Shown in pieces: positions 32,401 to 53,167 of a DNA stretch of 64,000 nucleotides. How positions within the stretch are numbered: position 1 is the stretch's first letter; each line of letters opens with the position of its first letter. The stretch is taken from contig NC_089275.1 of assembly GCF_963678975.1 (NCBI RefSeq), positions 17,682,220 through 17,746,219 of the forward strand. The letters are read 5' to 3'. Below the pieces are notes generated by a model. That model saw only the letters and a list, made by a program, of their open reading frames with translations, was not told where the DNA came from and searched no databases. The DNA comes from Dysidea avara (lineage: Eukaryota; Porifera; Demospongiae; Dictyoceratida; Dysideidae). The position numbers and the translations under genes were made by a program.

Positions 32401-35400
32401 CGATTTATAGTGGCAGCAGTGCTACAACAATAGCTGACAGTATATGTAATGCTGGAGTCGATGCATTTATAAACATCATTTGGTACACATGAGCATGTAC
32501 CTCTTAGTCTAAATAAATGCATATATTTGTATCTGCTGCTTTTTCTGTCATGATGACTAAAATTAATAAAGAAGAATGGACCGCTCAAATGCAACATGGG
32601 TCTTGCACGAGTGCAAGCGATTAACATGTGAAATGATGTTGCATTTGAATGGTACCATAACAACCTACCATTATTGTCATGATCCCTACTAGGTTGAAAA
32701 ACTATTAAATTTTGACACACATGCAATTATGACTAACTTTCACCACCACCGACACACTGTTGTACAGATGAACAGCATTAGTAGTGTTGCACATGTAACT
32801 TACGTGAAGTGACGTTCATTGATGACCCTTGCATATGATTTACTGGTTCTGGGATCCTGTTAAAAGATATCTAAATAGATTTTATTGACAAACATGCTCA
32901 AGACATTTGTATAAGTGTAGGTTAGAGATCTAGCACAGGATCTTTATGGAATTTAAAAAAAAACTGAAGGAGGTGTTTAAAACACAAAGATATGAGGGCA
33001 TGGTATCTAACTGACTGACTTAGATAATGGTATCATTTTATATGGGTACTGTAGGTGGAGTCATTGTAGGATTGGATTAGATGTTATTTTAAACTCCCCA
33101 CACAATGTTAAGGTAGTGCAGAACATATTATACTTTTGTTGAATAGCTGAAGAAATAAACTCGCACTTAATTGCTGCTTCCTAAAGTTAGAAGTGGAACT
33201 GAGAGCAGTGCTATAGCAAATGTGTATACACATCAACAAGAAAATCCACGAGTTGTATGAGTGCCATTTGATAAAAGTGTAAGTAGTTGCAATTCCAGAG
33301 AACCAGAAACCCCCTCTGAAAATTTCTAGATCCGCCCCTGTAAAACCATAGATTATCGAGAGTCCCCTATATAATCTATGCTAAAACCATACTGTATTCA
33401 ATGGGATACTTGCGGAAGACTAACCACTCACCGCTGTAACAATATCTTGAACAATATCTTGAACAATATTCACTCACTGATGAACAGTGTGTACTACACT
33501 TTCAGCATTTAGAAAAATGGCAAGTAAAAATTTGGCGAATCCATGCATACTCGCCAAATTCGCCAAAATTTTCTCCTGCTAAAATTTTCCGCTATACGGT
33601 ATTACATCAAGGTGCTATTGAGAGTATTATATTACAACACATTCAGTTTTCGGATTAATACTTGTATGTACATGTACAGTACAAAAATTAACAACTGCAC
33701 TGCATACACAGCAACCCTATTTTCACTCTAGATATACAGTAGCTACACTGTGTATTTATATGTGGACGTGTGCACATGCACTACACACAAGCACACACAC
33801 GTACACACGTATGTATTATACGCATACACAAACAATATACACACATTACACTACTCACTTCTCCATAGAACTCCTTCACAGCAGTCTTAATACTGGCCAC
33901 AAGGTCATCCTTCACTGACTTCTGACACAGAACATAATCTGGAGCCAAACAAGTTTGACCAGCATTGAGGTACTTGCCCCAGGCAATACGCTTGCCAGCT
34001 ACTTTAATGTTAGCACTTGAGTCCACATAACATGGGCTATAAGTAACAAAGTACCATATTAGCAAATCAACTACCGTCTATTGAATTTAAAATACTATTT
34101 AAATATTGTTGACGTGTTTAGTATATCAGTTATAGAAAGAAGTACACCAGTATATGCAATTCCACTACAATGCAATTCCACTACAACAATCCTTTACATT
34201 GTGTTACGTATGTATGTACCAAATAGCAAACACTAGTACGTTAGTGCATCCAGTTGCAGTAAAAGATAAGATAGTGTAGTGAAAAAACAGATTCTACTAA
34301 TGACAGTACCAAAACATATGTACAGTAAGGAGCGTACATTTTGGGAATTTTGTACGTTCTTCTTGCAGCAAAGCCACCCTTAAAATCCTCTCAGTAATGT
34401 ACTGTGCAGTAAGAGATAGCAGAAACAATTTAGAGGGAGTATTAGTAGATTTACAGTACTCTGATGCACATGATTCCATTGTAATTGATTATAATTGTAA
34501 CAATCATAGTCAGCATTTAGGAAATGACTCAAGATAGGTATTATGTGAGTAAGGGGAGAGGACAACAGCGTATCTCAGACTTACATTTAAACCTCTGCTA
34601 AAACTCAAGGGTGATGTGTGACCAACCTCCTCCACTGTTACAAGATCGTGTTGTTGCGCTATGATCACAGCTATATTTAGGCCCCCCTTGACAAACTCTC
34701 TCCCCTCATCATACACCTCATGGTCTCAAAGAAAAGTTCAATCCTGACACCTCAGTATCAAACTATTCTAATGGGCAAATAATTGATATTGATAAATTAT
34801 TGTTCCCAGAGCAGTTCTTAAGCCACCCTACATTTCTGTAGCTTTCATAGCTAAGATACTTATCGTGAACATGACAAAGCAATTCATAATACGAAATGCA
34901 CTTTGTACATTTTTGTGACAGAACTAGTTGCTCAGATAACCACCGGTGCAGAAGTCCCACCTTTTATTTCTATCTTACCAAAGAAGAAGGTATGGTGTGT
35001 TGTTACTGTATGTGTAACTGTGCAACCAAACAAGGAGCTTGAAATTGGTAGCATTATAGAGAGATTACTCTAATAGAACAGTCACTTTTAAGTCATTTAG
35101 TTCTTTACCTTTTCCCACCCATTTCCAAGGTTACTGGTGTCAGGTGTTCAGCAGCAGCCTTCATGATGATCTTTCCTACTCCACTACTACCAGTATAAAT
35201 GATGTGATCAAACTTCTCCTTGAGTACTGCCTGGGCCACTGGAATACCTCCTGCTGCCACTGAATAGCACTCCTAAACAATGTGACAAGAAGAACAGTAC
35301 TGGAGTTGGTTAGTAGACTGTAGCAGTAGTACTGTTGTATTAGGGATCATGAAGAACTGGGCTTTTCTGGCCAAAATTGTCATGACAACTTGTCAACATT

Positions 35401-38400
35401 GGTAAGGCACAGCCAAGCCCAAAAACGTCTTCAAACCAACCCCAAACCCTTCCAAAACGTTACTATGAAATTTTCTATTTAACAGAATTTTATGCTGATT
35501 ACTGACTGGCAAACTGATGCCTTCAGCTAAGCGTACCTCAACAATGGATAATGCTACAGGGTTAATTTCTTCACGCTTTGTCCTGACATGTGCCTTTTCA
35601 CCAACCTCAGTACATACAATACACCCATCATGGTCTTGCCTTTGTCCTCCTTTGTGTTCCAGTACTTTTCACTGACAACGCAAGGTGTCGATTTGTGATA
35701 GTGTGATGGAGCTTCCCTGTGGCTGTGATGGGACTTCCCTGTGGCTGTGATGGCTATTATGCTTATCGCCTGTATTAATTGCAGAGATACTTCTCATACT
35801 TGGTAATGCTGTGTAATGGGCGGAGCATAGTTAAAAACAAAACATACTGGCCACCTTCCTTTCCGTTATGTAAGCAATTGTTGGGGTGCAAGTTCTGATG
35901 CAGAGTTACTTTTATAGCAAGCCCGGTGCCATAATGCAGTATGTGCAGGCTCGTTTGTTATAATTATGTTATAAAAAAGTAAACAAACAAAGCAGAAGGA
36001 AAACTTAATAGGATTAGGGATCAAAAAAAGCAGTGGAACAAGGGAATAGCTAAAAAGTACAAGGAAGGTTGCCTATACCTGCAGATATACTAGTGGAGAT
36101 TTAATCCCAATGGTTTTAGACTATATCTGCAACCTTCCTTGTTTCACCACTTTTAGCTATGCAGTATATGTTGTAGAGTTCTGTTAGAGTAGCAAACGCA
36201 CATACATGTATAAATAGAGTATTTTCCACTACTTTCGAAACTATACAGGTTAGCACATGTACGTATATATACCGGACACTCATTGCTATCAATGCAAAAT
36301 GGCCAACATGAAAGCAGAGCAGCTAGAGTTGTTACCCACATGCACACACACTTTATACAGACACAATTACAATAAAATTATTATCATGTTTAATAACTTA
36401 GAGAAAAATACAATGGAGAGTCAACTATCTGAACTAAAGTGGTGAAGAATGTTCAATTGCACAATTTAAAAGTACACACTGTCTCTGTGCAGGCCAGCTC
36501 AATACAAAAGAGTCCATAAACATGCTATTCAGCTTTACAATTACAATGCAAACTCTGATCAAAATACTCCAATTGAGAAGCCATTTTGGGATTCGGATAA
36601 TCAACATCAGATAATGAACTTGTTGTGTTGACACGTGCATCATACAGTACTATCGTACGTATAGTAGAGACGGCAAACGTGTGGGTGTGGCCTGTGATAT
36701 AATATAACCCAAAAACCTGCCTCAATTTTTCCTCACAGCATCATGACAGTACTATACACAGGGAAATTTTGATGTCAGAAAAATTTGATGAATTTGACGA
36801 ATCGGTTTAATTCGTCAAATTTAAATTCATCAGATGTTTATAAGCACCTTAAAAAGTACAGGTATTGTCTACAATTTTTGGATTTTCGTCAACATTTTAT
36901 TCATCAAATCTGCTGAAATGTGAATTCGTCAAATTTTTCTTACGTACGTCTAAATTTCCTTGCGTACGGTATTGGTTGGGTAAAATTAATCCCAAAAGTA
37001 TCTTCAGATCAACCTGAAATGTTTCTGTCAAGTTGCTACAGATTTTTTTTAAAATTATTCAACAGAATTTTCTACTGCCTGCCTGCCTGACGTCTTCAGT
37101 CAAGCGTAGCAGAAAACTGGCTATAGCTACAATGAGTGCACTATTGTTTAACCTTTTATCCTTCTTTACCATGGTCATCAGTCAAGGTTCACCGCTGATA
37201 GTGTTAATAGACTACAGTAGGACTTCCATCCATATAATATTGAGACTGTTTTTGTGAAAAGTAGGCTATTTAGTGGTCATGAGCTTACAAAAAAGTTCAC
37301 AAACAAGTATAAGAGCACAGTAGGGATATTCACTTCTTATTGTTTTACAGTATTTGGACATTACGTACTACTCCGATCCAGCTTGTTTCAGTACTTTTTT
37401 ATTGCAGCATTATACACTGTCCCTAATCTAATTTAAAATTCCTATTTTTTTCTTCTTCTTGTACAATATGTGAATATGTGATACTCACAGGGTCCAAGTA
37501 TTGAGGGATCAGTTCCATCATCAAATTAGATGTGTGTGTAGACACATCACTAGGCTTCAACAATACTACATTACCTATGGACATTATAACAACCTATAAC
37601 ACTGTAGAATATGTCCTATAAAAACATGTGGATAATAATTCTGTGTACCTGCATTAAAGGTGGACTCAAATACACACGTGGATATTTCATACCATACAAG
37701 GTATACATACATAAGGTCAGTTTAAAACATCCAAACATCTGGATACTAAATTTGACATTTGCTGAACCCTATAGAATATTTCAAAGTACTCTAATAGAAC
37801 ATACAAGTACAGTGGAACATATGCTTCTCTGCAACAGACATTATATATTTATTTCTGCCAAGCAGTGTTCTTTGATAAGGGATGTAACAACTACTAATAG
37901 TGTTGATTTGGGACCTAATAAATGTCCTTTATAGACATTGGTAACAATCTGTCCTTAAAGAAATGGTTCCACTGTACTATAGTTGGCATAGAAAGCTACC
38001 ATAACTCCATTGGACACAACTTATTGTTATTGTTACATACAAACATGGTTGGGGACACTTGAATATTTCCATCCTTTCTAGTGAAATATGTTTAGTAATG
38101 TGTGGGACGGTAACTACCGTATAGCCAAAATATTTTGAAAGGGAAGATTTTGTGGTTTTGGGGGTTACCAGTGAAAATTTTATCCTTGAAATATTTAGTC
38201 TTGCATACAGTCTAATACATTTTGGGAGTGCTTGCAAATCCGTGAAAATTTTAGACTATAATAATATTATGGTAAAGCTCAATCAGCATAAAAAGTCTCA
38301 AGTCATGCAAAACTGAACATATGCATGAGATTGCCTTAGATTAAGGTTACGGGTTAGGCGCTTAATAATAGGTTATTATTTTTCGATGCGCGATAATGGT

Positions 38401-41396
38401 TGATGCAATATTGGCACGAAACTCGAGCAGATGTTAGTGAGAAGATTGTTAACTTTAAAGCGTTATAAATTATAGCCACGTATTAATAGCGGAGGAATCA
38501 TACAAAGTGAGTGTTAATAATTTACTGCGGAAGATAGTCAAACGTAAAATTAAGTCCCCGCAATATGGTTGAACCAGCGTTAAGCGCTACTGCTTAAAGT
38601 GATTATTATTCATCAAAAATAGCAGCTGTCAGCCAATTAGTACTAATTTTTTATGGCTGTGTTAATGGGTGGTTAAATTATCTAGGTCCTGTCGTGGAGA
38701 CTTTGTGGGAAAACTGACTAGAGGCTGGTTAGTTATCGTATCTTTCAAAGATAATGGAGATTAGTTCTTCTACGGAAATACCGCGAGTGCACTACAGTGC
38801 TGTTACAATCGGATAACAACTAAATTCGTCCATGAGGACCTAGAAATCACTTAGTAATAGCTTATTAACGCTAAATATCATGGTGTGGCTTCCCATGAAA
38901 CCTGGTTTTTGATGAATAGCAACTCAACAGTTTCGCTGTTTAGTGCCTGTACTTCTGTACAAGCGCATCCCTTGTGAGTGTATCGCCGCTTTAGGTATTA
39001 CTTGTACGTTAATAGACCATCTTAATTTAGTGTGTTCTTCCATGCAAAACGGTTAAAACAGAACTATAAGCAAAGCGCCTACAAAATTATTTACTGGGTA
39101 ACCCGTAACCTTAAGAATATACACAACACAGCTACAACAAACAAAACATATGTACCAGCAGCAATAGCAGCAGCTACGGGTTGGATCAGTACCACAATGG
39201 GATAGTTCCAGGAGCTAATCACACACACTACCCCGAGGGGTTCCCGTTGGATGTATATGGAGTTAATCATGTCAGTCATGTCCTTCTTGACGTACTCCGG
39301 CTTCATCCACTCATCCAAGTTGTTAATGGCCGTCACTAATTCTGCCTTGGTGGAGAAGAACTCTCCCAACATTGACTCCTCCTTGCTCTGAGATAAACAA
39401 CAAGATATACATGAATGGTGTGTAAACATTGTACCACATGCAGTATTGTTTCACCTACAGAGAGACGTACTGATTTCGGACCAATGTACTATTACATAAG
39501 GATACTGTGGACAAGTGTTGATTATCAAAGCTTCACATTTCAGGGTGTCATGTTTGATGAAGATGTCACTGTACATACCTCAATAAAAGGTTAAACTATT
39601 CAATCCATTACATTAAAAATAAAATTTAATGCAACATACTCACAAGTCACAAGCTAGGGTGAGCATGCGTGCATGGGGATCAAGTCATAGATAACCAACA
39701 CATTCATAAGACACGTGTCCATGACTCCTATGCACATCACATTTTACAACAGAAAACTACACACAAGACATACAGAGGCCAAACAAAGTTTTAGTTACAT
39801 TATGTTATGAACAATTAATACCAGAAAACTCTAAGATAATCTGTTGTGGACAATCATGCATAGCTGACTCAGACTGTACAAGTAGTACTTTACAAACACA
39901 ACAGACAACACTAACCCTTCTCAGATCATTATAGATGGCAGTGGCTATTTCATCTTCCTTCTCTTCCAGCATACGAAGAAGACACTTGAGTTGATGTAAC
40001 CGATATTGCTTAGGTCGAGTCTTGCCAGTGTTGAAGGCTTTCCTCAACTTAGCCACCATCTAACAAGTAACAGTAGTAAAACATCTACTGTACACACTGT
40101 ATGTCATGTACTACACAGCCACACAGGTATACACATGTAGGCGCAGTAAGTAGCTATACTGTATATACACTGTACATGCACATATTTCTAGTCACTACAT
40201 CATTCATTTTAAGGTCTATACTTGTGTGTATTTCTTTAGTTGACAACAAAGTATCTAAATAATACTGATTTCACAGAAATCATTTCAGTATGTACATGTG
40301 TGCTGGACCCCTCAGTTTGGCTATCAGCCATGTTCATGTGCAATGATTCCAGCAGGTGTAAGAGATGGCCATAGAACCTTGGCTCAGTGGTTAACAAACG
40401 CATAACTGATCAGTACAAGTACGTACTGCATAATAGACGGTATGTATATGTTGACCCAGTTCCAAAGTTATGCACCTATCAATATCCCCTACATAACCCC
40501 TCCCTAGTTTAGCGTGGCTAGGCCCTACTGTCTGCACTGTGCTTATCAATTGAAGGTCCTATATGTGAGAAGATCTGGTATAGTTCCAACACCCTGAGCT
40601 TTTTCAGTGTTGCAGACAGTTAGCGAATGCCTGACAGTAAGCTACCAACCCGCAATATGACGTGTTGTGATACAAGTCAGCCAGGTCTTCATTATTACCT
40701 CACAGTGTCAGAACAACTTTAATTGATATTCAAACTATACCAGACTTTCTCGCAGCTAGACGCTTACAATCGATAAGTGCAGTGCAGAGAGTAGGGTCTG
40801 GTCACGTGAGACTACCCCCTCCCGGGCACAGTGGGGGAATGGTGGGGATTTGACTTTTTAAAATATCAAATTCTCCACCCTTAGTGGTCAAATCCCCCAT
40901 GTAGCAACAATAGACATTAGGAAACAGGATAATTCTTCTGTAGCTTGCAAGTTAAACACACACACACACACCAAAAATTTCGAACAGTCAAATGCCCCAT
41001 AATGGGGCAGAATTTTAGATCACATCAGGCCCCAATAGGAGTGGTGGAGCTTAATATGGATAAGTGCATTACAATTATATAAAGTTTTAGCAGTTTAGAT
41101 GAGGAGTGTGGGGGTTTGCCATTTATGGGCCTATGGACTGGGCTAGGCGCGCCTAGCTAGGCTGCCAGTGATCATGTAATGCAGGCTGCTTCTATTGAAT
41201 CACTAGAATTAAGTGCACTAACTCATAACCACACCATATACACCCGTCCAGTCGTCTTTGCAAGTGTACGTTTAGAATACTCGAGATGTACGGTACAATA
41301 TAACCTCACCAGTTCACAAGTTAATACGTACACACGCTGTTAATTAGTCCATACCTCAGGGACGGCGCTTGGGTCTACTTCTTCTAGGGCAGCCAT
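26430..41396 (-). CDS. ALDH3-family (fatty) aldehyde dehydrogenase, complete 11-exon gene
   Basis: Oxidises aldehydes to acids with NAD(P)+. Exons from the 5' end: 41355-41396, 39916-40059, 39156-39387, 37489-37574, 35109-35272, 33859-34036, 32804-32856, 28686-28812, 28035-28105, 27866-27981 and 26430-26614. All introns are GT-AG and the phases agree, giving 1398 nt and 465 residues, a usual ALDH3 length. Landmarks are N123 in SSWNYPI, E218 in TLEMGGK and catalytic C252 in [11 protein letters not shown]. Their spacing equals that of mammalian ALDH3A1. Also visible: [23 protein letters not shown] and [17 protein letters not shown]. The C-terminus lacks the membrane anchor of ALDH3A2. The start is 190 bp after the ADAR stop on the same strand. 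Introns hold a fibrinogen-related copy on the other strand and several transposons. A broken duplicate of exons 8-11 lies at 1140-5105. Confidence 0.93.
28833..29020. mobile_element. pogo/Tigger-like MITE in ALDH intron
   Basis: CAGTACAGACCTCCCTTAAC at the left and GGACATGCTTCACTG at the right. Orthologous in position to the element at 5126-5333, so it predates the ALDH segmental duplication. Confidence 0.6.
29397..30144 (+). pseudogene. Fibrinogen-related secreted protein, copy 4, nested in ALDH intron 7
   Basis: Starts ATGGCAAATCTTAAATC with the family signal peptide and Cys-rich segment. Near 29540 it lacks 8 nt present in copy 1 (between GGAGTCT and GGTAAC), which shifts the frame. From about 29557 to the TGA at 30142-30144 the fibrinogen domain is intact in one frame: [54 protein letters not shown] and [12 protein letters not shown]. 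This gives the family's normal C-terminus that copy 1 loses to a stop. It lies on the strand opposite ALDH. A downstream start would make a cytosolic domain without signal peptide, which is unlikely to be useful. Most likely a recent pseudogene; an assembly error is the alternative. Confidence 0.8.
30145..31469. other. ALDH intron 7 sequence, dispersed repeat ends only
   Basis: Contains a TGTGACCGGATTTCAC MITE end near 30760 and an AAGGAAGG repeat piece near 30330. No exon is supported between ALDH exons 7 and 8. Confidence 0.45.
31470..31993. repeat. Long foldback element in ALDH intron 7
   Basis: Arms of about 216 bp (31470-31685 and 31778-31993) are inverted copies around a 92-bp loop, with the symmetry centre at 31731.5. 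Each arm contains a hAT-like CAGGGGCGTACGCAGGAATT end (at 31541 and, inverted, ending at 31922) and two copies of the TGACTG..TATTAGAG motif. The high identity implies recent origin or gene conversion. Confidence 0.9.
32227..32267. repeat. (TG)n microsatellite
   Basis: Run of TG dinucleotides with two TTG interruptions within ALDH intron 7. Confidence 0.9.
33347..33380. mobile_element. 34-bp CATAGAT mini-element, 7-bp target duplication
   Basis: Starts CATAGATTAT and ends ATAATCTATG, little more than two inverted ends. Flanked by GTAAAAC (33340-33346) and CTAAAAC (33381-33387), which match at 6 of 7 positions. Lies in ALDH intron 6. Same family as 48539, 49991, 50265 and 52086. Confidence 0.7.
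35339..35770. repeat. Interspersed repeat family, copy 2 (with partial copy 36975-37140)
   Basis: Shares TTAGGGATCATG, CAGCCAAGCCCAAAAACGTC, GATGCCTTCAGCTAAGCGTA and ACATGTGCCTTTTC with 24899-25460 in the same order. It lies in ALDH intron 4. Confidence 0.6.
36032..36160. repeat. Inverted-repeat MITE
   Basis: GTGGAACAAGGGAATAGC...CAAGGAAGGTTGC is mirrored by GCAACCTTCCTTGTTTCACC, with ATTTAATCCC inside. Related to the short inverted repeat at 13835-13894 and a piece near 30330. Confidence 0.55.
36757..36975. repeat. MITE-like repeat with TTTGACGAAT segments
   Basis: Begins ACAGGGAAATTTTGATG and ends CTAAATTTCCTTGCGTACGG. The interior contains several inverted ATTCGTCAAATTT copies. A related TTTGGCGAA hairpin lies at about 33530-33570. 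Within ALDH intron 4. Confidence 0.5.
37812..37974. mobile_element. pogo/Tigger-like MITE
   Basis: CAGTGGAAC at the left and, inverted, CAGTGGAAC at the right, each with TA outside. 163 bp in ALDH intron 3. Confidence 0.7.
38345..39110. mobile_element. TTAA-flanked element (piggyBac-like target) in ALDH intron 3
   Basis: Inverted ends GGTTACGGGTTA, each flanked by TTAA (38341-38344 and 39111-39114). 766 bp with no recognisable transposase, and GC content higher than the intron around it. Its right edge is about 41 bp from ALDH exon 3, at the splice-donor side. Confidence 0.75.
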
Positions 41397-41586: not shown

Positions 41587-44196
41587 TTATACGAAGATAC
41601 CCTTTTGTCTGTCTATAGCTGCCTGGTCAAATTTCTCTTGCTCTTGTGGTTTCCTCATCCAAACTCCATAACCTTTCCTCTGACACTCAGTATAAAGACT
41701 CACCTTGGCTCTCTGAAAGTCAGCTGCTTTTGACTTCACCTCTTGATAGTCAGAGCCATCTGCTAAATCAGGTCGATTGGCTACCTTGCATAGCGATAAA
41801 AATTCAGCATAGAAACTTAGCTTTGCTATTCGTGATACTGCCTTTGCATTGGTGGCTTTTATTGCTCCAGGCATTACAGGTCTCCCAACGCCACCATCTA
41901 ATACTTCTACACTGTCATCTCCAATAGTCCAGTTAGTGCTTTGAGCATTGGTCTTGTCTGTGTGTCTTTTCATGTCGTCACCGCCAACAACTCTGCCCAG
42001 TGTTGGGTGATTGACACGGAAGTTTGGAGGAAGGTCAGCAATGTCCTGGAATCGGCAGCAAACAGCCCTTGAAAGGTGACCATGATGGTGTAGACTACCA
42101 AGAGTGAGTGAGCTCATATAAACTGGACACATAAAGTGACTCAAAAGTGCTCCCTGTAAACCAAGCACATTCCAACGAGCAACCTTATCACTGCATGACA
42201 TGGTACGTAGTCGTTCTCCCCTCATTATTCCATCCCAGGTTTGCTCAGGTGCAGCATTCTCAACAGGAATTGTTCCCTCACCTCCCTCCATCTTGGTACG
42301 TAAAATTCCATGAAGTTTTGTACTAATGGTAGGATTGTGCTTACCATCCAGTGGAGGTTCTTTCTGATTATCGTAGCCATCACCTCTGGAAAACTGGGCC
42401 CCATCACCACACGGAGCCGTACTGATGTACAAATGGAACTTGATAGTATCCTTCACCATAGCTAGACCACTACCATCACTGCTAAATATAGTATAATCAG
42501 TATTGGGGTCACTGTAGAACTTGTGTAGCTGAGAGAAAAAAAATCGTCTGAGAGAACGTCTGGCTACAACTTCAGCATGCATATCATTTACAACATGTCC
42601 TTCCAAACTTAACTTGTTACCTTCAACACATCTGGTACCTGATCCCATTGAGACAACTTGCAAAGTATCACTGGACGTGTCCTCCATTATGAAACATGCT
42701 ATCACTTTTCTGCCAGGCATCGGGGTGGCCACACTTTGTAATGCTTGCTGGAAATGATCATGGCTCAGTTTTGTAATTTTGTCAGCAAATGTAACACTAC
42801 TTTGTCCAGCTGCAGCAACACCACCAGGGGTACTAAAAACTTTGACAGCAGTAGTAGTAGTCTGTAATTCAGCATCTGTCACAGCCCTTAGAGCTAGATC
42901 AGCTGCCATTCTTCTGGCCTCCTTTTTATTAGTGGACTCAGCCTCAAATCTGTAGGTACCAAAACAGGCTGCCACCACAAAATGTTTACGATGAGGGGGA
43001 CCATATTCACGGACTTCAACAAACTTTAGTTCAACCTTTTTACCCTGACAATACTCTGTAAGTAAACTGATGGGATTTCTGTTCATATCATTGACTACAC
43101 TGGCTAGCGCAGGTCCCTTCATAGGATTAAAACCACCGGTTAAAATTCCCGTTACGTTCATACCTGGAGCACTAGTGCCGGTTGACAATGATGCTTGACT
43201 TGAAGCTGTTAAATCAGAACCACCTTGGTTGGTATCCATTAAAGAAGATGGGGAGTTACTTCCATTGGAACTTTCACTGATTAGAGACCATAATGGAGGA
43301 AATCTTCCCTTCGTACATGACAAAATGCCATCTTTCTGAAGCTGGTGTAATGTTGGGTTTACTTCATTTCTAGACTTCTTCCCAATACCTAGGGCAATAT
43401 CAAGTGGTGTCTTAGGTTCAGGGTCACTATGCAATAATTGCAGTATTCTACCCTGTAAATCATCTGCTGGTAATTTACTAACTTCTGTGTTTATCTGTTG
43501 GGTAGTGTCAACATCCATATCCTCCGCAGGAGCATCTTCATACTGTTGAGCAACAAATTGTAATTTCTTAAGCTGATCTCTTTGTAAAGAACTGAGGCTA
43601 TTACTACTAGAAGAGGAACTACTACTTGAATTTGTCTGGACCTCCAGTTCCCACACTGGCGTCCCCTTGGATTCATTCTTAGAAACTAATCCTTCTTTCA
43701 TCATGGCGTAAAGCAGAGAATTAGCACCTTGTCTTTTAATACCCACCATCTGACCAAGCTGCAAGGCAGTAGAAGGCTGTCTACAATCTTTCATAACTCT
43801 CAACAAATTCTTCTTGATGTCAGGAGGGGGGGCATCTGACATACTGGTAGGAGTTAGTGTATAGCCGTGTGAAGTATGCACCTTTCCAGGGCCACCGTGA
43901 CGGGAGCTATGCGACTGCGCCAACGGTGGTTGCCATGAACGAAGGAGACCACGGCCATGTCCGCTCGTCCCAAATTGTGAAGCAATAGGTGCGCTTTTAA
44001 TAGAACTAACTTGGCACGCCTTCCACATAGGAGGTTGTTCTTGTATTTTCACTATAAGTCCATTCTGCTGCATGAGATATAAGGTTGGATTGACTTCTTT
44101 TCTGGTGACAAGTCCAACACCCTTGGCGATTTCCAGCGTGGTAGCCGGCCTGCCACTACTGGTGATAAAGTTCAGTATCTTCTTTTGTAAATCCAT
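41587..44196 (-). CDS. ADAR: ADAR, double-stranded RNA adenosine deaminase with three Z-alpha-like domains
   Basis: Intronless gene for 869 residues that converts adenosine to inosine in double-stranded RNA. Three winged-helix Z-alpha-like modules lie at about 1-60, 125-184 and 246-305. The first two keep the Asn/Tyr/Trp set used for Z-nucleic acid recognition (N36/Y40/W58 and N159/Y163/W182). The third has N280 and W303 but H284 in place of Tyr. One dsRNA-binding domain lies at about 374-440 (NPISLLTEYCQGKKVEL, then NKKEARRMAADLAL). The deaminase domain (about 505-865) has the zinc and proton-shuttle motifs H540-A-E542, PCG with C596, and SCSDK with C668, all expected residues. Low-complexity Ser linker at 190-199. 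The start ATG gives the first module complete. Divergent from the quinone reductase, 265 bp away. Vertebrate ADAR1 has two Z modules and three dsRBDs, so this architecture differs. Confidence 0.97.
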   Translation of the reverse strand: MDLQKKILNFITSSGRPATTLEIAKGVGLVTRKEVNPTLYLMQQNGLIVKIQEQPPMWKACQVSSIKSAPIASQFGTSGHGRGLLRSWQPPLAQSHSSRHGGPGKVHTSHGYTLTPTSMSDAPPPDIKKNLLRVMKDCRQPSTALQLGQMVGIKRQGANSLLYAMMKEGLVSKNESKGTPVWELEVQTNSSSSSSSSSNSLSSLQRDQLKKLQFVAQQYEDAPAEDMDVDTTQQINTEVSKLPADDLQGRILQLLHSDPEPKTPLDIALGIGKKSRNEVNPTLHQLQKDGILSCTKGRFPPLWSLISESSNGSNSPSSLMDTNQGGSDLTASSQASLSTGTSAPGMNVTGILTGGFNPMKGPALASVVNDMNRNPISLLTEYCQGKKVELKFVEVREYGPPHRKHFVVAACFGTYRFEAESTNKKEARRMAADLALRAVTDAELQTTTTAVKVFSTPGGVAAAGQSSVTFADKITKLSHDHFQQALQSVATPMPGRKVIACFIMEDTSSDTLQVVSMGSGTRCVEGNKLSLEGHVVNDMHAEVVARRSLRRFFFSQLHKFYSDPNTDYTIFSSDGSGLAMVKDTIKFHLYISTAPCGDGAQFSRGDGYDNQKEPPLDGKHNPTISTKLHGILRTKMEGGEGTIPVENAAPEQTWDGIMRGERLRTMSCSDKVARWNVLGLQGALLSHFMCPVYMSSLTLGSLHHHGHLSRAVCCRFQDIADLPPNFRVNHPTLGRVVGGDDMKRHTDKTNAQSTNWTIGDDSVEVLDGGVGRPVMPGAIKATNAKAVSRIAKLSFYAEFLSLCKVANRPDLADGSDYQEVKSKAADFQRAKVSLYTECQRKGYGVWMRKPQEQEKFDQAAIDRQKGIFV

Positions 44197-44461
44197 TTTT
44201 GAAGATGTGAAAATTACTCACGTTAAGACAGAAATGCGAAAAGCGTAGCCAGTACAATTTCTAGGAGAAGGGAATGCCCAGTGATGAATGGCACGTGATG
44301 TCTGTGTATACTAGCCCACGTGACTTTATATGTCGTCGCGATTTCTGTCAACGTCTTCAAAAGTAAGTCTCGTACACTCCGAGCACACTTCACAATAGAC
44401 TTTAAACCTTGCGTTTGCATACCACTTACTTGTTGACGTTTTTCAGGTTATTCAAACTCTG
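44197..44461. promoter_or_regulatory. Divergent promoter between ADAR and quinone reductase; 5' UTR intron
   Basis: 265 bp separate the two start codons on opposite strands. No clear TATA box is seen. On the reductase side a GTAAGT donor at 44363 and a TTTTTCAG acceptor ending at 44446 outline an 84-bp intron in the leader. The fragment at 63644 begins at that same acceptor boundary (GTTATTCAAA). Confidence 0.55.
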
Positions 44462-45427
44462 ATGAAGGCAGTGCGAGTGGAAGCATTCGGTGGACCCCAA
44501 GTTTTGCAAGTCAAAGAAGTGCCTATTCCCAAACCAGTTGACACCCAGGTGTTGCTAAAAATTAAATCAGTTGGGGTCAACCCCGTAGAGACCTACATTC
44601 GTGCTGGAGCTTACGCCAACAAACCCAGTTTACCATTCACACCTGGTAAAGACTGTGCTGGAGTTATAGAATCTGTTGGTAGTGAGGTTACACAAGTTAA
44701 GCCAGGAGACCGGGTGTTTACGGGGAAAGCTATCACTGGTGCATATGCTGAGTATGCTATTGTAGATGCTAGTGATGTTTACAATCTTTCATCATCGCTC
44801 ACATTTCAGCAAGGGGCTGCACTAGCTGTCCCATATCTCACAGCTTACAGAGGTCTGTTTCACAAGGGAGGTGCCAAACCCGGACAAACTGTATTGGTCC
44901 ATGGAGCTAGTGGAGGTGTTGGCATTGCAGCTGTCCAGCTTGCTAAGATACATGGACTAACAGTTATTGGGACTGCGGGAACAGACAAGGGTACAGAGTG
45001 TGTGAAAAGGGCAGGTGCGGATTATGTGTTCAACCATCGTGAGGCAGACTACTTGAAGAAAATAGTCGAGGTCACAGGTGGAGTGGGACCAAACCTTGTT
45101 TTTGAAAATGCTGCCCACATCAACTTGGGTAAAGATTTAGAAATACTTGCACCTGCTGGACGTGTCGTCGTGGTTGGAAGCCGAGGTCCCATTGAGGTCA
45201 ATCCAAGAGATACAATGAGAAATGAATCATCTGTAGTTGGAGTAATGTTGTTTCGAGCTACCAAAGATGAACTTGCTGAAAGCCATGCAGCCATTCAGGC
45301 TGGCATGAAAGCTGGTTGGCTACAACCGATAGTAGGAAAAGAGTTTCCACTTGCAGAAGCTGCCGCTGCTCATGAAGATATCATTAATGGACAAGGTGCC
45401 ATTGGTAAACTAGTACTTAATGTATAG
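44462..45427 (+). CDS. Zeta-crystallin-like NADPH:quinone oxidoreductase
   Basis: Single-exon 321-residue member of the MDR superfamily, quinone oxidoreductase (CRYZ) type, which reduces quinones with NADPH in the cytosol and needs no zinc. Seen: N-terminal MKAVRVEAFGGPQVL, GVNPVETYIRAG, PGKDCAGVIESVG, the nucleotide-binding motif VHGASGGVGIAAVQLAK (about 143-159), then GRVVVVGSRG, and a terminal GAIGKLVLNV. Length is normal for the family (about 320-330). It ends 188 bp before the convergent kinase gene. A broken copy lies at 54038-54790 and a 5' fragment at 63644-63903. Confidence 0.93.
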   Translation: MKAVRVEAFGGPQVLQVKEVPIPKPVDTQVLLKIKSVGVNPVETYIRAGAYANKPSLPFTPGKDCAGVIESVGSEVTQVKPGDRVFTGKAITGAYAEYAIVDASDVYNLSSSLTFQQGAALAVPYLTAYRGLFHKGGAKPGQTVLVHGASGGVGIAAVQLAKIHGLTVIGTAGTDKGTECVKRAGADYVFNHREADYLKKIVEVTGGVGPNLVFENAAHINLGKDLEILAPAGRVVVVGSRGPIEVNPRDTMRNESSVVGVMLFRATKDELAESHAAIQAGMKAGWLQPIVGKEFPLAEAAAAHEDIINGQGAIGKLVLNV

Positions 45428-45615
45428 TAAATGGTTACAGTTATTTAAGTACGTACTTATTGTTGTTTTAACACAAAATAGATTGTAACAGCATGAATGA
45501 TGCAATAATGTTGCAGATGTAATACTTATAAATGGTTATAGGTTACATAATCATGTGCATTTACTACGTATATAAGTATCAACAATACAAAACAGTGATT
45601 ACATGAAAAAGCTAT

Positions 45616-48210
45616 TCAAATTGTCAGTTTGTGTAGTTTAACATGTCCCCATCCACGCCAAGCAGAAGAAAATTCAAAAATACTGGCATGACCAGCCATG
45701 GATAGCCAGCACCCTCTGGTCATGTCTGGAGTATCACATTCTATGTGATGCCAGTGACAACATCGGACATCATAATACCATGTCCTGTCGATATAATAAC
45801 TGGACATACGTGTTGTCTGAGCAATGCTTAATGCAAACAGGTAACCATTATGTAGAAAAATATAGTGTGCACCTTTTAAAGTTTGAGTTAAAAGAAGCGT
45901 GTGACTTTCTGTATCTACTGACATGTCAGCAGATGATAAATTGGCTGCTTGACTGCTACAGCGTTTCAGTACAGTGTCAAAAATTTGTTTTATGTCTATG
46001 TAATACACTATCTTCTGGGTAGCACTACAAACAAAAAGTTTACCCGCCAGAACAATGTAACTGTTTACTGGGGAGCTTTCCACCAGTGCACCTTCTGCAG
46101 ACGAAAGTTTAAACAACATCCAATTGCAAATACTGTCAGCATGGACCCACATCACACTGCCGTCTATCACTAACAAGAAAGATTGGTAAGTCAGGATTAG
46201 CGGGTTTTTCAAGTCACCGCCAGGAAGTGGTGGAATTGATGAATAGGCCCAAGCACGGTCAACAAGCAGTAAAAATTGCTTTTGTTTTTTCAGGCCAATG
46301 ATGCTATTCCCAAAACAACCAATACAAAGAATACCATAGCCACTAATACCCATCGAGCCACTTATTATAGTGAACTTTCCGTTCTGTGGATCACAACAGA
46401 CCATGGTCCCCATGTGTAACTGTTTTTGGTTCTTCAGATATAAATCACACAGAAAAAGAATTTTGGAGTCGTGATATATTAGTGTCACATTTTTGTCAGT
46501 CATAGAACTACCAGGAAAAGATTTGATGCTGTGTAGTGTTGTGGCTGTGCCACTAACCGGCTGCAAGTCAATTTCTTTATGAAGTTTAATTGTGAGATTA
46601 GTAAGCACAGATCTGGAACACGATATTCCCTACATATATAGAAACAGCATGTAATATCACTCAAAACAAATATACGATACATACCATGTGAGGAATCAAA
46701 AGATCTTGAAGCAACTTGGTATACTGATCTTGTATTGCTCTGGTTTGATCTTCATTTTCAACAACCTTTTGTTTTAAAGTCTTTACAGTATTAATCCATT
46801 GAGTGTTATTTTTTTCTAATTCACTTTTTTTGGCACGTAGCTGTTTGTCCTTAGTTTCTACTTCAACTGACAAAGCAGATACTTGGGTATTTAATTTCTC
46901 TACGGTATCAGAAAGACTTTCCTTTTCTTTCTTCAGCACTAAGCAATCCAAATTAGCATCTATCAACTGCTGCAAAGTATTAGTATGTTTTTCTGTATGC
47001 ACAACACTGGAAAGTCTTTCGATTTCATTTTGCTGATGCTGAATGACAGTACGCAACCTAGAAATTTCCTGAGCCAATGCAGTCTTTTCATCTTCAAGTA
47101 GCTTGTTGGTCTCTCTCAAGTCTTTAATGCTTGAGGTTTCAATTTTTTCCAATTGCAATCTCTCGATAAATTTTCTTTCAACTCTAGACCTCTAGCCATT
47201 TCGTCCATTGTTTGTTGCATTGCTCTGGTATTCCTTGCATTGTACTGAATTTCCAAGAAGTTATCATCTTCAATTTTATATCTGGCAGTCTCTACATCAA
47301 TTTGTGCAAGAATTTCACATGATTTTAATCGCTGTTTTGGATCCACATGCAAGCATTTTTTAAGCGTTTCTCTAACACAGAAACCCTCACCAATTTCATC
47401 AGCATGGCATCTTTCTAGATCAGTAAAAGCTGAGCCATCATCTTTGTGTAAACCATGTTGAAGAGGCCACTTGCCTGAGAATACATGAAACCCCAGAACC
47501 CCATACGAGTACACATCAACTTCTGTGCCATAGTGAGGGTGCTTTTTCAATGCTTCTGGGGGCATGTATATCACAGTTCCTGGACATTGAGTTGACAATG
47601 GTTTTGTTAAGTATTTGGCCACACCAAGGTCAGCTACCTTGGCAGTCATACTGAATGTCAACAAGACATTCTTTACTGTAAGATCACGATGAACTATTGG
47701 GGGGTTTTGGCAGTGAATGTAAGCCACAGCTCTGGCAACGTCTTGTAGAATGAAAAGCTTTGTGGAAACTGGAAGTTTCTGCGATTCAGGTGAATCATGT
47801 CTATATTGCATTAAACACTGCTCAAGACTCTTGTACATCAATTCCATTACTAACAGTGGGTATGGTGAACTGTCTTTAAAATAAATCCCAATGAAGCGCA
47901 CGAAATTTGGGTGGTGAATTTTGCTCAGGATTTTTATTTCTTTACAAAATTCGTTCACCAAATACATCGACTCATTTTCACCGTGACTGATCTCTGATTC
48001 ATCATCTGGTAAAAGAGCCGAATGCAATTCCTTGGCTGCGCAGGGTGTTCCACAGTATTTGATCTTAGTGATGGTGCCGTAACTTCCGGAGCCAATTTTT
48101 TCGTTGCTTTCTTCGTCAATATATTCTTGTGGCAGTATAAAAGGACTCAATTCGCGTTTGACTTTTTCTACACTGACAATACTCGCCTCGATACTCATCC
48201 ACTCCTCCAT
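45616..48210 (-). CDS. Protein kinase with coiled coil and C-terminal domain, copy A (one apparent frameshift)
   Basis: Starts MEEWMSIEAS. Tyrosine-kinase-like fold at about 35-300: glycine loop G40-S-G-S-Y-G45, lysine K60 (CAAKEL), HRDLTVKN with D176 and N181, DLG (194-196) in place of DFG, and YMPPE. These suggest an active kinase. A Leu/Glu/Lys-rich coiled coil follows, then after a 55-bp intron (46630-46684) a roughly 330-residue C-terminal domain with repeated beta-strand-like segments (GKLFVCSATQKIVYYI, GYLFALSI) that may be a propeller. Compared with copy B, the frame shifts near 47150-47165, at the junction of kinase and coiled coil. The product is then a 364-residue kinase, unless this is an assembly error. 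Style resembles expanded sponge cytoplasmic kinases; the substrate is unknown. Tail to tail with the quinone reductase. Confidence 0.85.
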
Positions 48211-48531
48211 TGTTTCCGAGATTGTTTCTCCAAGCCTCGTGTTTCACCATAGATAACGTTAGTCTCGTGCCCAGCTGGGCTCGCGCTAATGGGTGGGGTC
48301 TATTCTACGGAACGGAATGCTTTCTCAAATTGAAGCTTGCAGCTTACCATTGCTGTACAAGTTATCGGTGGCACTTCCAGCAGGTAATCAAACGTACCCC
48401 AAGAAAGATAAAACGAATTTAAGGATCGATTGTGGGTTCTTGTTGGTTGTCATTAGTATTATTATTATTATATTTTATAATTGTAAGACTCGTATGCATG
48501 AGCATAGTACAATGATTAGTAACGAAGTAGA
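48211..48531. other. Upstream region of kinase A, with a dispersed repeat
   Basis: GGGGTCTATTCTACGGAACG at about 48296 recurs as GGGGTCTATTTTACAGAATG at about 48930, part of a local direct duplication. 48465-48525 matches the repeat near 10080-10135. Confidence 0.5.
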
Positions 48532-48538
48532 GTTCTAC

Positions 48539-48564
48539 CATAGATTATAAGTCTAGTATCTATG
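48539..48564. mobile_element. 26-bp CATAGAT mini-element, perfect 7-bp target duplication
   Basis: Begins CATAGATTAT and ends AGTATCTATG. Both flanks are GTTCTAC (48532-48538 and 48565-48571). It is too short to hold anything but its ends. Confidence 0.75.
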
Positions 48565-48571
48565 GTTCTAC

Positions 48572-49990
48572 TAACTGTGGGAACAGCTGACTCAACTTAA
48601 TGTGTTCATCTTCGGATGTATCAAGTAGGGAACTTAATGCATGACTTGTTTTTACTAGTATGTGAGTTGTTTTTGCTTACTTTGACTTCAGAATGTACAG
48701 TCTGGGGCCCAGCCTTTCTAATCGGCATAAATCAGTATGTAACTACACTACAAAGGAAACAAGTATGGTGACAAGCTTAGTCTAAGCAGAATTTAACGGA
48801 ATTTTGTGCAGTGTGTAAGGAGCAAACATTCAGATACCTCAAGGAGGCTATATTATGTGAACATCAATGATTCATTAACAGAGTAGTGGACTAATGCCAG
48901 ATATCTCAACCTGAGTAGTGACCAGGATGGGGTCTATTTTACAGAATGGAATGCTTTCTGAATTAAAACTTGCAGCTTGGCTAGCCGCTATAATTGCTGA
49001 AATTGAATTTTATCAGTGGAACCTCCAGGAAAATGGAATAGAATAATAAAATATTAATAGCTGTCTCATGCAGTGATTGTTCTACTACCTGATATATCAA
49101 GCAGGTCTCTTCAATCCATTTATTGCATGACCAAGGCAAGTTTTGTTACTACAATACAGTATAGCCGATTGGATGTCAGTTGTTTCTGCTAATCTTGACA
49201 AGCCATAAATAGTTTAGAAGACCACTCAATTTCTTCAGTTTCAGAGCATAATATCCACAGAGAAATTAACTAGAAAGTTACTGGTGACAGGAAAAGGCTA
49301 GGTGATCATGACTTTATTCAGTCTAATAAACAGAATATATGGTTGATTGAGGGAGGTATCACTTTCAGAATGTTCAGACGACCAGTGATGAGATGCATGG
49401 ATTCATCAAATTTTTGTTGCGGTTGGAGACATTATCTAAAAGCAAACTGACTGTATAATATTAATTCACTTTCTTTATATTTTCTCAATTTTGAGCCTGT
49501 ATACAAATAATTAAATTTTTCTTAGTTAATAGAAATCCTAGAATAAGATGGGAGAGAAAATTTATCTTAGCTTACCTATACTGTACAACTTAAAGGAAAA
49601 TGAAAAAAACATACAGACAAATCAATAAAATTAGTACAACTTTGAATTACAGATTTAAATACTTAATATGAATTAAAGCCTTTAGATAATTGTTGCTCCA
49701 AAGCAAAATTGTAGATGGAAAAAACAAAGACTGGTGAGATCTTGGTTAATTAATGACAGTGGTTGGAGTGATAAAAAGGGTAGTAACTTCTTGTTTTTGA
49801 ATAGGTTGCAAAGTGGAGGTACAAATCAAAATGGGATATCAATTTCATTATGAAAAATTTGTATACATAAATAATCTAGCAATACTGTATTCACCACTTA
49901 AATATGCTACAACAGTGTCGGTACATTGGCAGTCTACCTTGAAATCTCAACTCTAGAGTAGGTCCAACACAGAGCAGCACGCACTGTAAC
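48572..49990. other. Intergenic, nothing recognised beyond the local duplication
   Basis: About 48925-49150 is a diverged direct copy of about 48290-48680. No coding sequence is supported. Confidence 0.45.
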
Positions 49991-50022
49991 CATAGATAAT
50001 AGAATATACTCTATTATCTATG
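49991..50022. mobile_element. 32-bp CATAGAT mini-element, perfect 7-bp target duplication
   Basis: Begins CATAGATAATAGA and ends TCTATTATCTATG, a near-perfect hairpin. Both flanks are CTGTAAC (49984-49990 and 50023-50029). Confidence 0.8.
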
Positions 50023-50264
50023 CTGTAACAAACACATGTGATCCCACTGTAATTTCATGGATAAGCTGGACTGAGAATCACTTGAAAATAGACAAACAAA
50101 TTTAACCTGTTTTGTTTGAAGTGAAGCATGTGAAATGTTACACTTAAGAAATCCTAGGATTCTTAGGCGGTATGTAATTAATGTGAGAGTTCCATTTCAG
50201 GTCTGACTAGAATTATTGCCCACCGCGCTAATGCGCAAACACCGTCTGGTGACGCAAGTTTTAA

Positions 50265-50707
50265 CATAGATAGTGTACAGACAAGTATATACCCGGGATT
50301 GGAATCATCTCACGTGAGCCCATTAACTTCAATACAAACGCGTTCGCCGGATCATTGAAATACACCATTCACAATACGTTTCTGTAAAATGTCAATATAT
50401 GAGAGCGTTCGTTTAGTTGTTGGTAAGCCTTCCTCGCGAAAGGGGGTGGTTAATTAGCGGTAGGGCCTGGTTTGTAGGTGTGTCTCAATGCGGCTGGCCA
50501 TGGGCTGGCCAATGCGTAGCCACCATTGCCGAAGGAACCAGACTTATAGCGCACAGCAACTAACTATTAGTGTTTGAGGAAGTACCCACAAAGAGTAGAA
50601 CTAGTCTTCTGTGAGATAAATTCGAAGATATTGCTACTTCCGGTAACAATGATCTGGCACGAAAAACCGGATGATTCCAATCCCGGGTACTTGTCTGTAT
50701 ATCTATG
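50265..50707. mobile_element. 443-bp CATAGAT-family element, perfect 7-bp target duplication
   Basis: Ends CATAGATAGTGTACAGACAA and, inverted, CATAGATATACAGACAAG. Similarity of the ends extends about 45 bp, through CCCGGGATTGGAATCATC. Flanked by GTTTTAA (50258-50264 and 50708-50714). No protein. Confidence 0.8.
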
Positions 50708-50832
50708 GTTTTAATAAGCGTAACCAGCTGTAATAAAGATACATTAGCGGAACCGGAATCAGGAACGGAATGGAATAACTAAACCAGGTGAAGAAGAAAC
50801 CAAAGCTGAAACCCTGAGGTTTGCCTGTTAAC

Positions 50833-51925
50833 AGGCTAAAAAGTTTTCTATCTGGCAGGAAACAAAAGGTTGTAGTTAATGGACAGTCATCATCTTGGTG
50901 TGATGTGCGTAGTGGTGTGCCACAAGGTTCTGTTTGGGTCCATTACTGTTTAATGTCTACATAAATGACATAACAACACAAATCAGTAGTCCTATCTTAC
51001 AATTTGCTGATGACTTAAAGATGTTCCACATTATCAATGATGCTACTGATTATCACCAGCTGCAGCAAGATATAAACAATTTAGTTGCTTGGGCAAACAA
51101 GTGGCAATTGAATTTCAATGTGTCTAAATGCCATCTATTGCATTTCGGCAAACCACATAACTATGGCAGTTACAGCATAAATGGAATCCAGATTTCTCCG
51201 AATGACTCCATCAAGGACTTGGGCGTTATTGTCGATAACCAACTAAAGTTTCATGAGCACGCTGATTCTGTTGTTATGAAAGCAAACCGTACATTGGCTA
51301 TTATACGGAAGTCCTTCAATTTCACTGATAAGACAATGTTTCTTAGCCTTTATAAGTCATTGGTGAGACCGATCATTGAATATGGTAATGCTATTTGGGG
51401 GCCACATTATATCCTTGATCAACAATCAATTGAAAGTGTGCAACGACGGTTTACCAAGTATTTGTTTAACTTTAATGATCTACCATACTCAGAACGTTTA
51501 TCAATATTAGGTTTGCCATCCCTGCAGTATCGTCGCTTACGAGGTGACATGATTCTTATTTATCGAATGATTTATAATGACATTGGACTCGAGCTATCTG
51601 ACTTCTTTTCTACCAATACATGCAGTTCTACCAGGGGCCACGCAAACAAATTTTTAAACCATGTGCTGTCACCCGGCCAAGATCAAACTTTTTTGCAGTA
51701 AGGAGCATTAATGTATGGAACAATTTACCAGAGAATGTGATTGCAGCCCAATCTATCAACAGTTTTAAAAACCTACTGGATCAACACTTCTCCTCACAAA
51801 TGTTTACTATCGATCATGACTGGTAGCTAATTTAAATTATGTTTGATTTTATTTTGCTAGCTATAGAATAGGATCATATACAGGCATTGCCTATGTATCC
51901 TAAATCACTAATACTAATACTAACA
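50833..51925 (+). mobile_element. 5'-truncated LINE (CR1/L2/Jockey-like reverse transcriptase)
   Basis: Encodes the C-terminal half of a non-LTR reverse transcriptase: SGVPQG, GPLLFNVYINDI, the catalytic FADDLK, then thumb and tail with RSINVWNNLP. The frame is interrupted by a missing base just before GPLLF (about 50932) and by another shift near 51690. The 3' end carries a short (ACTAAT)n tail at about 51906-51923, as in CR1/L2-like LINEs. A dead, truncated copy. Confidence 0.88.
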
Positions 51926-52085
51926 ATGCGGTTTATTCTAGGATTTCTCCTTTGGGGGGGGGGGGGGATCAGGAATTTGGGGGGTGACCAGGTGAAAGTC
52001 TGCTATATAGTTATCCAAGTTCACAACTAGTCTGGCGGCGCCCGCCCCTTCGCATAGAGTAAGGGTCTGGTACGCTTAGTATCAC

Positions 52086-52923
52086 CATAGATAATAGAGT
52101 AAAGGGATAGGAAACGCAAGCGATTTCCGGTTTGATTTCCGTTACGCATGACTTGATAGGACAAGACAGTTTTGTGCTCAAGCATGAGAATTAGTGTTCT
52201 AAGCAGCGTAAATAGTAATCCAACAGACTACAGCAAGTATTTAGGCCTATGTGAGAGATTTTGGCGAGAGAATTCAGACCGTAGATTTTGTAACAAAGCG
52301 TATCGCATTAACCGTGGTTGTTACACGCTGTCACACTTTCGCTCATAGTACCTTCATGCCTCGTCCATACCGCTTCTTTTATAGCCGGTTCCACTTTCGA
52401 ATCTTGTGGTAAGCTAGGCGTGTCACCAACACAGTCCTTTACCGTTGCGTTGTACTGCAAGGTGGTTTAAACTTTTGGTTAAAAATGGAAGATACTTAGT
52501 CGTTTCTTCAAGCAACAGTTCCTGTTTTGCTCCGATATTTCCTCTGGTTCCCTCTGTTAACTGGTAAGGAATAGGTTTATCACAGTTAAAAGGATAGAAT
52601 ATATTTACGAAGAAAATAAAGTGGTTTAAAGTAATTTTTGGGCCGTTTTTTTCACTTTCAATCTCCTTTAATTTTGCGTATAACTTCCTTGAGGGTTGGT
52701 ACCATCCTATTTCCCTCGATTACTTAGTTGAGTTCACTGTAGCGAAGTTTCACAGTCGTTAGTTACAAAATTCTGTCGTTACAACAATTTGTTTCTCTTT
52801 GATACAAGCGCAGCAAGCGTAACGAGTATGTTCGTGACGTAATACACGAAATTCCAATAGAAGTGTACGTATTTTGTGACGTCACGTTATTGCGTTTCCT
52901 ATCCCTTTACTCTATTATCTATG
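52086..52923. mobile_element. 838-bp CATAGAT-family element nested in the MULE-like element
   Basis: Ends CATAGATAATAGAGTAAAGG and its exact inverse (about 35 bp identical, through GATAGGAAACGCAA). Flanked by GTATCAC (52079-52085 and 52924-52930), a perfect 7-bp duplication. Longest member of the family here; still no recognised transposase. Confidence 0.85.
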
Positions 52924-53167
52924 GTATCACCGAGTTGTTTGAACGTAATGACGTAACGAAAATGGTCTTAACGGAAGTGCCTCGCCCACAACTGTGGCAG
53001 AGATATTGAACTTTCTTCGCCTTTACACAGGCTATAGTGGATTGGTCTACTTTTATAGAATACGTATGTCTCCCTACCTAGAAAATCAGAGCGTAACCCG
53101 GGTTTTTCGCGTATCAAACAAGGCTAAAAGCCCTTCCCGAAATAACACTTTCTTCTCTTTGTTCTTT

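Follow-up and report, generated by a model that had tools for sequence, protein, structure and literature searches.

The closest described systems to the elements reported here are members of the P superfamily (this literature is cited, here and below, from the parts of each paper that were available). The P element of Drosophila melanogaster makes 8-bp target duplications and leaves 17-nt overhangs (PMC7776569, PMC10983969); one microhomology join was recovered 14 times after its excision (PMC2895639, Table 1). Galileo makes mostly 7-bp duplications, with the palindromic consensus GTANTAC (PMC4168063, PMC2775673). Both 7-bp duplications in the P superfamily and P excision junctions in flies are already known. 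Here, a stretch of 64,000 nucleotides from the sponge Dysidea avara (contig NC_089275.1, positions 17,682,220 to 17,746,219 of the forward strand; hereafter the window) and the genome of this sponge (550.8 Mb, 108 contigs) were searched for units that start with CATAGAT and end with ATCTATG. The CATAGAT family comprises a group of DNA transposons of the P superfamily, which move by cut-and-paste and duplicate 7 bp of the target. Its 26-34 bp units, which an earlier note had taken for mobile elements with minimal ends, are with high confidence read as P-element excision scars left after the rejoining of ends; the same probably holds for most of the about 2800 units of 24-54 bp, and the genome seems to contain thousands of P excision scars.

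The sponge elements resemble Drosophila P in their CA...TG ends, and their scars suggest that they may also make a long staggered cut (17 nt in the fly, PMC7776569). Their short products also resemble the fly junctions, which are composed of a duplication, at most one overhang per end, microhomology or filler, and the second duplication (PMC2895639); whereas the fly's 8-bp duplication and 17-nt overhang are replaced by 7 bp and by arms of up to 18-26 nt that track a core motif. With Galileo they share the 7-bp duplications and the palindromic GT...AC targets (PMC4168063, PMC2775673). However, Galileo has long Foldback-like terminal inverted repeats and a THAP domain; in the full-size sponge elements compared the two ends are alike over about 20-36 nt only, and no THAP domain was seen in the open reading frames (ORFs) scanned. 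Pdre2, the zebrafish THAP9 element, is another P-superfamily member whose ends start with CATA (CATACCTGTCAAC, PMC10983969), but its duplication is 8 bp and its end sequence is different. The P-type miniature inverted-repeat transposable elements (MITEs) of Anopheles gambiae are short non-autonomous copies with P ends (PMC1562414), similar to the 443- and 838-bp units of the window; they have 8-bp duplications and are far larger than the tiny units here. A stagger of about 18-26 nt tracking the core, against 17 nt in Drosophila, would be new. In the literature searched (titles and abstract starts; few subscription papers), no natural genome-wide set of P scars, core-anchored variable stagger or split P transposase was described, which hints that these are novel.

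Full-size elements, their ends and their target duplications

Five units with CATAGAT and ATCTATG ends are present in the window, with lengths of 34, 26, 32, 443 and 838 bp, and their positions and 7-mer flanks agree with those given in the earlier note. The flanking 7-mers are perfect in four of the five, with a single mismatch at 33347-33380. The units and their parts are as follows; no strand is assigned to units, and the cores were located from the sequence and the real-end pattern given below.

33340-33346 and 33381-33387: flanks GTAAAAC and CTAAAAC of the 34-bp unit
33347-33380: tiny unit of 34 bp without GGGAT core, read as an excision scar, without a convincing parent end
48532-48538 and 48565-48571: target duplication GTTCTAC of the 26-bp unit
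48539-48564: tiny unit of 26 bp without core, read as an excision scar, without a convincing parent end
49984-49990 and 50023-50029: target duplication CTGTAAC of the 32-bp unit
49991-50022: unit of 32 bp, read as a scar of the family of the 838-bp element
50258-50264 and 50708-50714: target duplication GTTTTAA of the 443-bp element
50265-50707: non-autonomous P-type element of 443 bp; outer segments before the GGGATTGGAA core of 30 nt (left) and 23 nt (right)
50295-50304, plus strand: left GGGATTGGAA core of the 443-bp element
50675-50684, minus strand: right GGGATTGGAA core of the 443-bp element
52079-52085 and 52924-52930: target duplication GTATCAC of the 838-bp element
52086-52923: non-autonomous (MITE-like) P element of 838 bp, with ends that match the element in L041
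52104-52113, plus strand: left GGGATAGGAA core of the 838-bp element, outer segment 18 nt
52896-52905, minus strand: right GGGATAGGAA core of the 838-bp element, outer segment 18 nt

In total, the window contains eight CATAGAT/ATCTATG pairs of 14-1500 bp, and the flanking 7-mers are exact in four of them and within one mismatch in five. Dinucleotide shuffles of the window (n=100) gave a mean of 0.72 pairs, none of which was flanked by an exact or one-mismatch 7-mer. Empty copies of the units' own sites were sought within the window, and none was found. The 443- and 838-bp units are non-autonomous P-superfamily members. The ends of the 838-bp element are nearly identical to those of a 5.56-kb transposase-bearing element in locus L041 (88% over 106 bp and 93% over 68 bp), and it is therefore considered a non-autonomous relative; its interior showed no match to the eight transposase loci described below. 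Among the matches listed on C1, similar ends occur in at least ten pairs spaced 827-845 bp apart, which places the 838-bp unit in a size-uniform non-autonomous family. The 23-nt end of the 443-bp element recurs at two or more C1 places among the matches listed.

The P-type RNase H domain PF21787 has 151 matches genome-wide, with 150 candidates scored out of 447. Around such matches, eight 7-kb pieces that differ in open-frame length were chosen and read; all eight contain an end consisting of CATAGAT, a spacer and a GGGAT core. Both ends and a perfect 7-bp duplication are present in L038, L039 and L041; L040 has both ends with no matching duplication seen, and the other four loci have one end within the piece read. 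Another element (C1:55570727-55578116, 7390 bp) also has both ends and a perfect 7-bp duplication, and holds the PF21787 match of L032. Elements of 4.9-7.4 kb with P-type transposase domains are thus bounded by the same ends and duplications. By Pfam, L038 and L041 contain both PF21787 and PF21789, and L039 contains PF21787; the ORF of L038 also has a match (E 3.8e-4) to 6p5a, a structure of the Drosophila P transposase. No THAP domain was found in nine ORFs of three elements, short or spliced exons lying outside the scan. The same nine ORFs gave no Pfam match to the GTP-binding insertion domain, the stretch between the RNase H parts being incompletely scanned. Six of the PF21787 matches share both their score and an open-frame length of 464 aa, which looks like recent multiplication: C1:7468398, C5:34524798, C9:4264984, C9:8917767, C10:17951891 and C10:21590089.

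The earlier note had proposed a single, perhaps undescribed family with shared ends and 7-bp duplications, and had suggested looking for an autonomous copy. The shared ends and duplications held up, and L041 carries transposase domains between the ends of the 838-bp unit. Since 7-bp duplications with GTANTAC have been published for Galileo, the elements are a set of P-superfamily families and not an undescribed superfamily. There is next to no chance that they belong to another superfamily with 6-8 bp duplications (Dada, hAT or Mutator) or to an unclassified one. A 7-bp duplication is uncommon, and coding capacity is absent from most of the units read, which might favour such an assignment; but P-type RNase H domains lie within the same ends and duplications (P-type being the only transposase class searched), and the palindromic 7-bp target of the P-superfamily member Galileo (PMC4168063, PMC2775673) is of the same kind.

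A real end of this family is composed of CATAGAT, a spacer and a GGGATWGGAA-like core. The pattern CATAGATN{6,30}GGGATNGGAA gave 738 and 733 matches genome-wide, against 1 and 3 for the control. The outer segment from tip to core is 13-30 nt long, mostly 18-25, in 64 distinct ends (a partial library, taken mostly from the first-listed real-end matches and in a few cases from transposase-bearing or full-size elements), and 26 nt in L037. Core variants include GGGATATGAA in L037 and L039, and GGGATTAGAA in L042; the outer segments of the left and right ends can also differ within one element. Thirteen of 15 full-size elements have perfect duplications, a count that is partly by construction (three were selected for the duplication and two came from the window finding); the sole test is therefore given by ten element-like end pairs chosen from the real-end matches blind to their flanks, of which eight have a perfect 7-bp duplication. 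These ten were picked with a core-containing pattern, so the evidence for the core itself comes from the eight transposase loci and both long window elements, all of which have GGGAT at an end. The core is probably what the transposase binds. In several ends (L038, L039, C1:34020148 and C1:55393662), a common motif near ATCCGCACCTCC lies about 45-70 nt inside, which is possibly an internal transposase binding site.

The short units are abundant. The pattern CATAGATN{10,40}ATCTATG, corresponding to units of 24-54 bp, gave 2800 forward matches against 97 for the reversed-pattern control; the counts by length bin were 231, 530 and 861 forward against 8, 15 and 43, although these carry a one-letter filter and cannot serve as a length histogram. 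The flanks of the first 50 units in the order of the genome-wide listing were read. An adjacent 7-bp repeat was exact in 25 and within one mismatch in 29, whereas left and right flanks swapped between different units predict 0.245 and 0.71, respectively; an exact 8-bp repeat was found in 0 of 50. Several of the 50 units have common flanks and are not all independent. Among 40 further chosen units (34 of family E and 6 of family D, some at the same site), the 7-mer was exact in 31. The excess of exactly 7-bp repeats among the sampled units confirms the duplication length in the earlier note. Its preferred site GTNNNAC also stood as a real palindromic preference, though a loose one: in 54 distinct perfect sites (both strands pooled, four from the window), T at position 2 and A at position 6 each reach 72%, and G at position 1 and C at position 7 each 48%.

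Arms of the tiny units

It is at the core that the tiny units differ from the full-size ends. Among short units (up to 73 bp), those in which GGGAT follows the tip at a distance of 6-24 nt amount to 41 rows at 36 places, and three of these rows hold GGGATNGGAA, all being 58-63 bp long, against the 2800 matches of 24-54 bp. The conserved core of full-size ends, which a MITE would be expected to retain, is almost always missing from the 24-54 bp units. Their arms were compared with the 64 ends plus four more (L036, L037, L040 and L042), using 164 tiny units plus 18 selected for long arms; a separate survey covers all places of families D and E. For 36 end types there is a scar arm of at least 15 nt, and in 16 of them the longest arm stops within 1 nt of the core, at core distances of 18, 19, 20, 23 and 26 nt. 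No arm entered the core by four or more letters in the 36 end types, or in the 65 E and 26 D places. Extensions of one to three letters are G's that the partner arm can supply too.

For family E, which has a core distance of 23 and was collected with a pattern demanding an arm of 19 nt, 71 rows were reduced to 65 places by merging the two strands of five units and excluding one overlapping row. All are combinations of parent arms, 23 overlapping, 19 flush and 23 with a filler of 1-19 nt. They include a 46-mer of exactly 23+23 nt, classed as overlapping because its CCC/GGG join reads both ways, and a unit of 23+6+22. Family D has 34 rows at 26 places (16-nt arm required), and some of its scars combine two different parent ends, with 20 and 19 nt. 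Families A and I have 5 and 2 places of the same kind. In the window, the 32-bp unit has one arm that agrees with the real end CATAGATAATAGAGTATAA at 18 of 19 nt, and its other arm matches over 13 nt. An apparent tiny unit (L040:768-815) adjoins a full-size element of the same end family.

Two simpler descriptions were discarded. Length alone, as a fixed 17+17 minus an overlap, is no evidence, since any short unit can be split in this way; the arms were therefore compared with real ends instead. A fixed 17-nt cut does not fit the E arms of 19-23 nt (pattern minimum 19), and one arm matches a 26-nt end fully. The arms of 18-26 nt point to a stagger longer than 17 nt, which we infer from the scars themselves. 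As in Drosophila-type junctions, both duplications are kept (to within one mismatch in 29 of the 50 sampled units), the arms do not exceed the overhang (itself deduced from the scars), and microhomology or filler lies between them.

The most likely mechanism would be a staggered cut of the P type, followed by end joining. The transposase would cleave one strand at the tip (CATAGAT); its cut in the other strand would lie within the end, where the GGGATWGGAA core has its outer border. Each host flank would then retain its copy of the duplication, extended by about 18-26 nt of transposon end as a 3' overhang. The overhangs could be joined by annealing of short microhomologies, by a flush join of trimmed ends, or with a few bases of filler between them. 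The resulting sequence would consist of the duplication, the left outer arm, optional filler, the right outer arm and the duplication again, and would resemble a perfect minute transposon. What is observed are the products; the strand polarity and exact cut positions in this scheme, and the repair pathway by analogy with Drosophila, are inferred.

The same arms bear on another repair-based explanation, that aborted gap repair produced the tiny units as extreme internal deletions; the sister would have been copied before end joining, and the arm length would reflect synthesis, not the cut. Most products of the wild-type fly P-excision assay come from incomplete repair synthesis followed by end joining (PMC2895639), and this process may have made units such as the 443-bp element. 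However, synthesised arms should cross the core at variable points; GGGATNGGAA is retained in very few of the short GGGAT rows (units of up to 73 bp), and there is no end type with an arm four or more letters into the core. As the source of the tiny units, it is considered very unlikely.

Joins between arms and recurrence at unrelated sites

The joins were examined in family E, with one triplicate and one pair each counted once. Microhomology of at least 2 nt was found in 17 of the 39 clean joins, against 17.2% expected from random trimming (p=1e-4). In the strict set, without three composite or duplication-less places, the count was 15 of 36 (p=5e-4). Five E products recurred at three or more different sites, and every one of them was joined through microhomology of 1-3 nt. 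If ends are joined through microhomology, identical units are expected at unrelated sites.

Several sites are present in more than one state. Identical tiny units were considered as mobile copies, and this was rejected for many of them: they share a common flank (sites X, Y and Z) and are therefore embedded in other repeats. Site X lies in a repeat for which 40 copies were scored out of 87 candidates; six have an extra 32-47 nt, and the other 34 differ by -14 to +12 nt. Four of these 34 were read, and have an uninterrupted site with a single GCTCCAG. Other site X copies contain a 28-bp scar with a perfect duplication or a 40-bp scar with a damaged duplication. At site Y, three different scars (31, 35 and 25 bp) occupy the same duplication. 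Empty sites with a single 7-mer, which the earlier note had proposed to seek in other haplotypes, were thus seen in paralogous repeat copies.

Put in terms of the P superfamily, the earlier note's view of small mobile units would mean that a P-type transposase recognises only the outer 13-20 nt and moves units of 24-50 bp as micro-MITEs. The exact 7-bp duplications agree with this view, and so do identical units at unrelated sites with different duplications, such as one 26-mer at five sites, each with a different perfect duplication. Identical copies, as expected if MITEs descend by transposition, do exist, but most of them coincide with predicted microhomology joins. The tiny units lack the core that is present at an end of every transposase locus read, the 65 places of family E hold as many as 43 distinct sequences, and the E units at three or more sites are microhomology joins. 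Moreover, the ends that Drosophila P requires are 138 bp and 216 bp long, and the Anopheles P-MITEs keep <100 bp of P sequence per end (PMC1562414). Mobility of the tiny units is thus judged highly improbable. The proposal that one transposase mobilises units from 838 bp down to 26 bp is not supported in its 26-bp part; the parent match of the tiny units stops at the core, and their joins are excision-like.

Some observations count against reading the tiny units as excision scars. Identical units of 26, 31, 33 and 37 bp occur at unrelated sites with different perfect duplications, and two E products without microhomology were found at two sites each. Among the 50 sampled units, 21 have no 7-bp duplication within one mismatch. 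In addition, 139 of 328 scar arms match a listed real end by less than 13 nt (the end library being partial), and for two of the three scars in the window no parent end is convincing. No site was found with a full element in one copy and a scar in another; excision itself is deduced from its products, in the one haplotype examined.

As excision scars, the tiny units would give natural scars and parent elements in one genome, where simple counts would inform on cut position, target choice and the outcomes of end joining. The families differ in their tip-to-core distance, and how the P transposase sets its long stagger therefore becomes testable. A general caution is that a very small "transposon", even a perfect one flanked by target duplications, can be a scar of repair.

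A second open frame in the transposase loci, and genes of the window

A second open frame of about 330-370 aa was found in L038, L039 and L041, antisense and convergent to the catalytic gene. A total of 38 loci were searched for it, 30 of them as 3.4-kb pieces; it is present in seven of the eight 7-kb loci. Where both frames were found, the second lies on the strand opposite the catalytic gene in 15 of 15 loci. Its positions in five of the loci are:

L038, 5104-6210, minus strand: second open frame
L039, 5127-6119, minus strand: second open frame
L041, 5670-6782, minus strand: second open frame
L036, 6313-6999, minus strand: second open frame
L040, 1155-2057, plus strand: second open frame

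The frame is conserved between divergent elements (54% and 29%), and a five-member alignment was made. The profile matches the 135-residue chain B (6p5a_B) in the structure of the Drosophila P transposase with E 1.8e-4 over two stretches, neither of which is significant singly. We take this chain to be the C-terminal domain of the Drosophila P transposase. Three of the five members match Pfam Tnp_P_element_C weakly (best E 0.073), with the member shown lying below the cut-off. A fold search with a structure model of the second frame (pLDDT 70) returned nothing at E<=0.001, and the link to the P C-terminal domain is therefore one of sequence. The C-terminal domain of the transposase thus appears to be encoded by a separate antisense gene, which suggests a transposase split into two genes; whereas in Drosophila one gene encodes the whole transposase. 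We give about an even chance to the wider proposal that the inner cut is set by the core, with a stagger of 18-26 nt between families and not a fixed 17, and that the transposase is split into two convergent genes, the catalytic one and the antisense C-terminal one. The scars would then record this arrangement and the end-joining choices of the host over evolutionary time.

Among the genes of the window are one for an ADAR-type deaminase, which has z-alpha and dsRBD domains, and one for a fibrinogen-C protein. A pair of similar long reading frames, about 9 kb apart, lies at 47119-48243 and 56069-57631 (minus strand); the first is a protein kinase by Pfam, and the pair looks like a local gene duplication. 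Retroelement fragments with reverse transcriptase and integrase core are found at 50913-51698 (plus strand) and 11881-12354 (minus strand).

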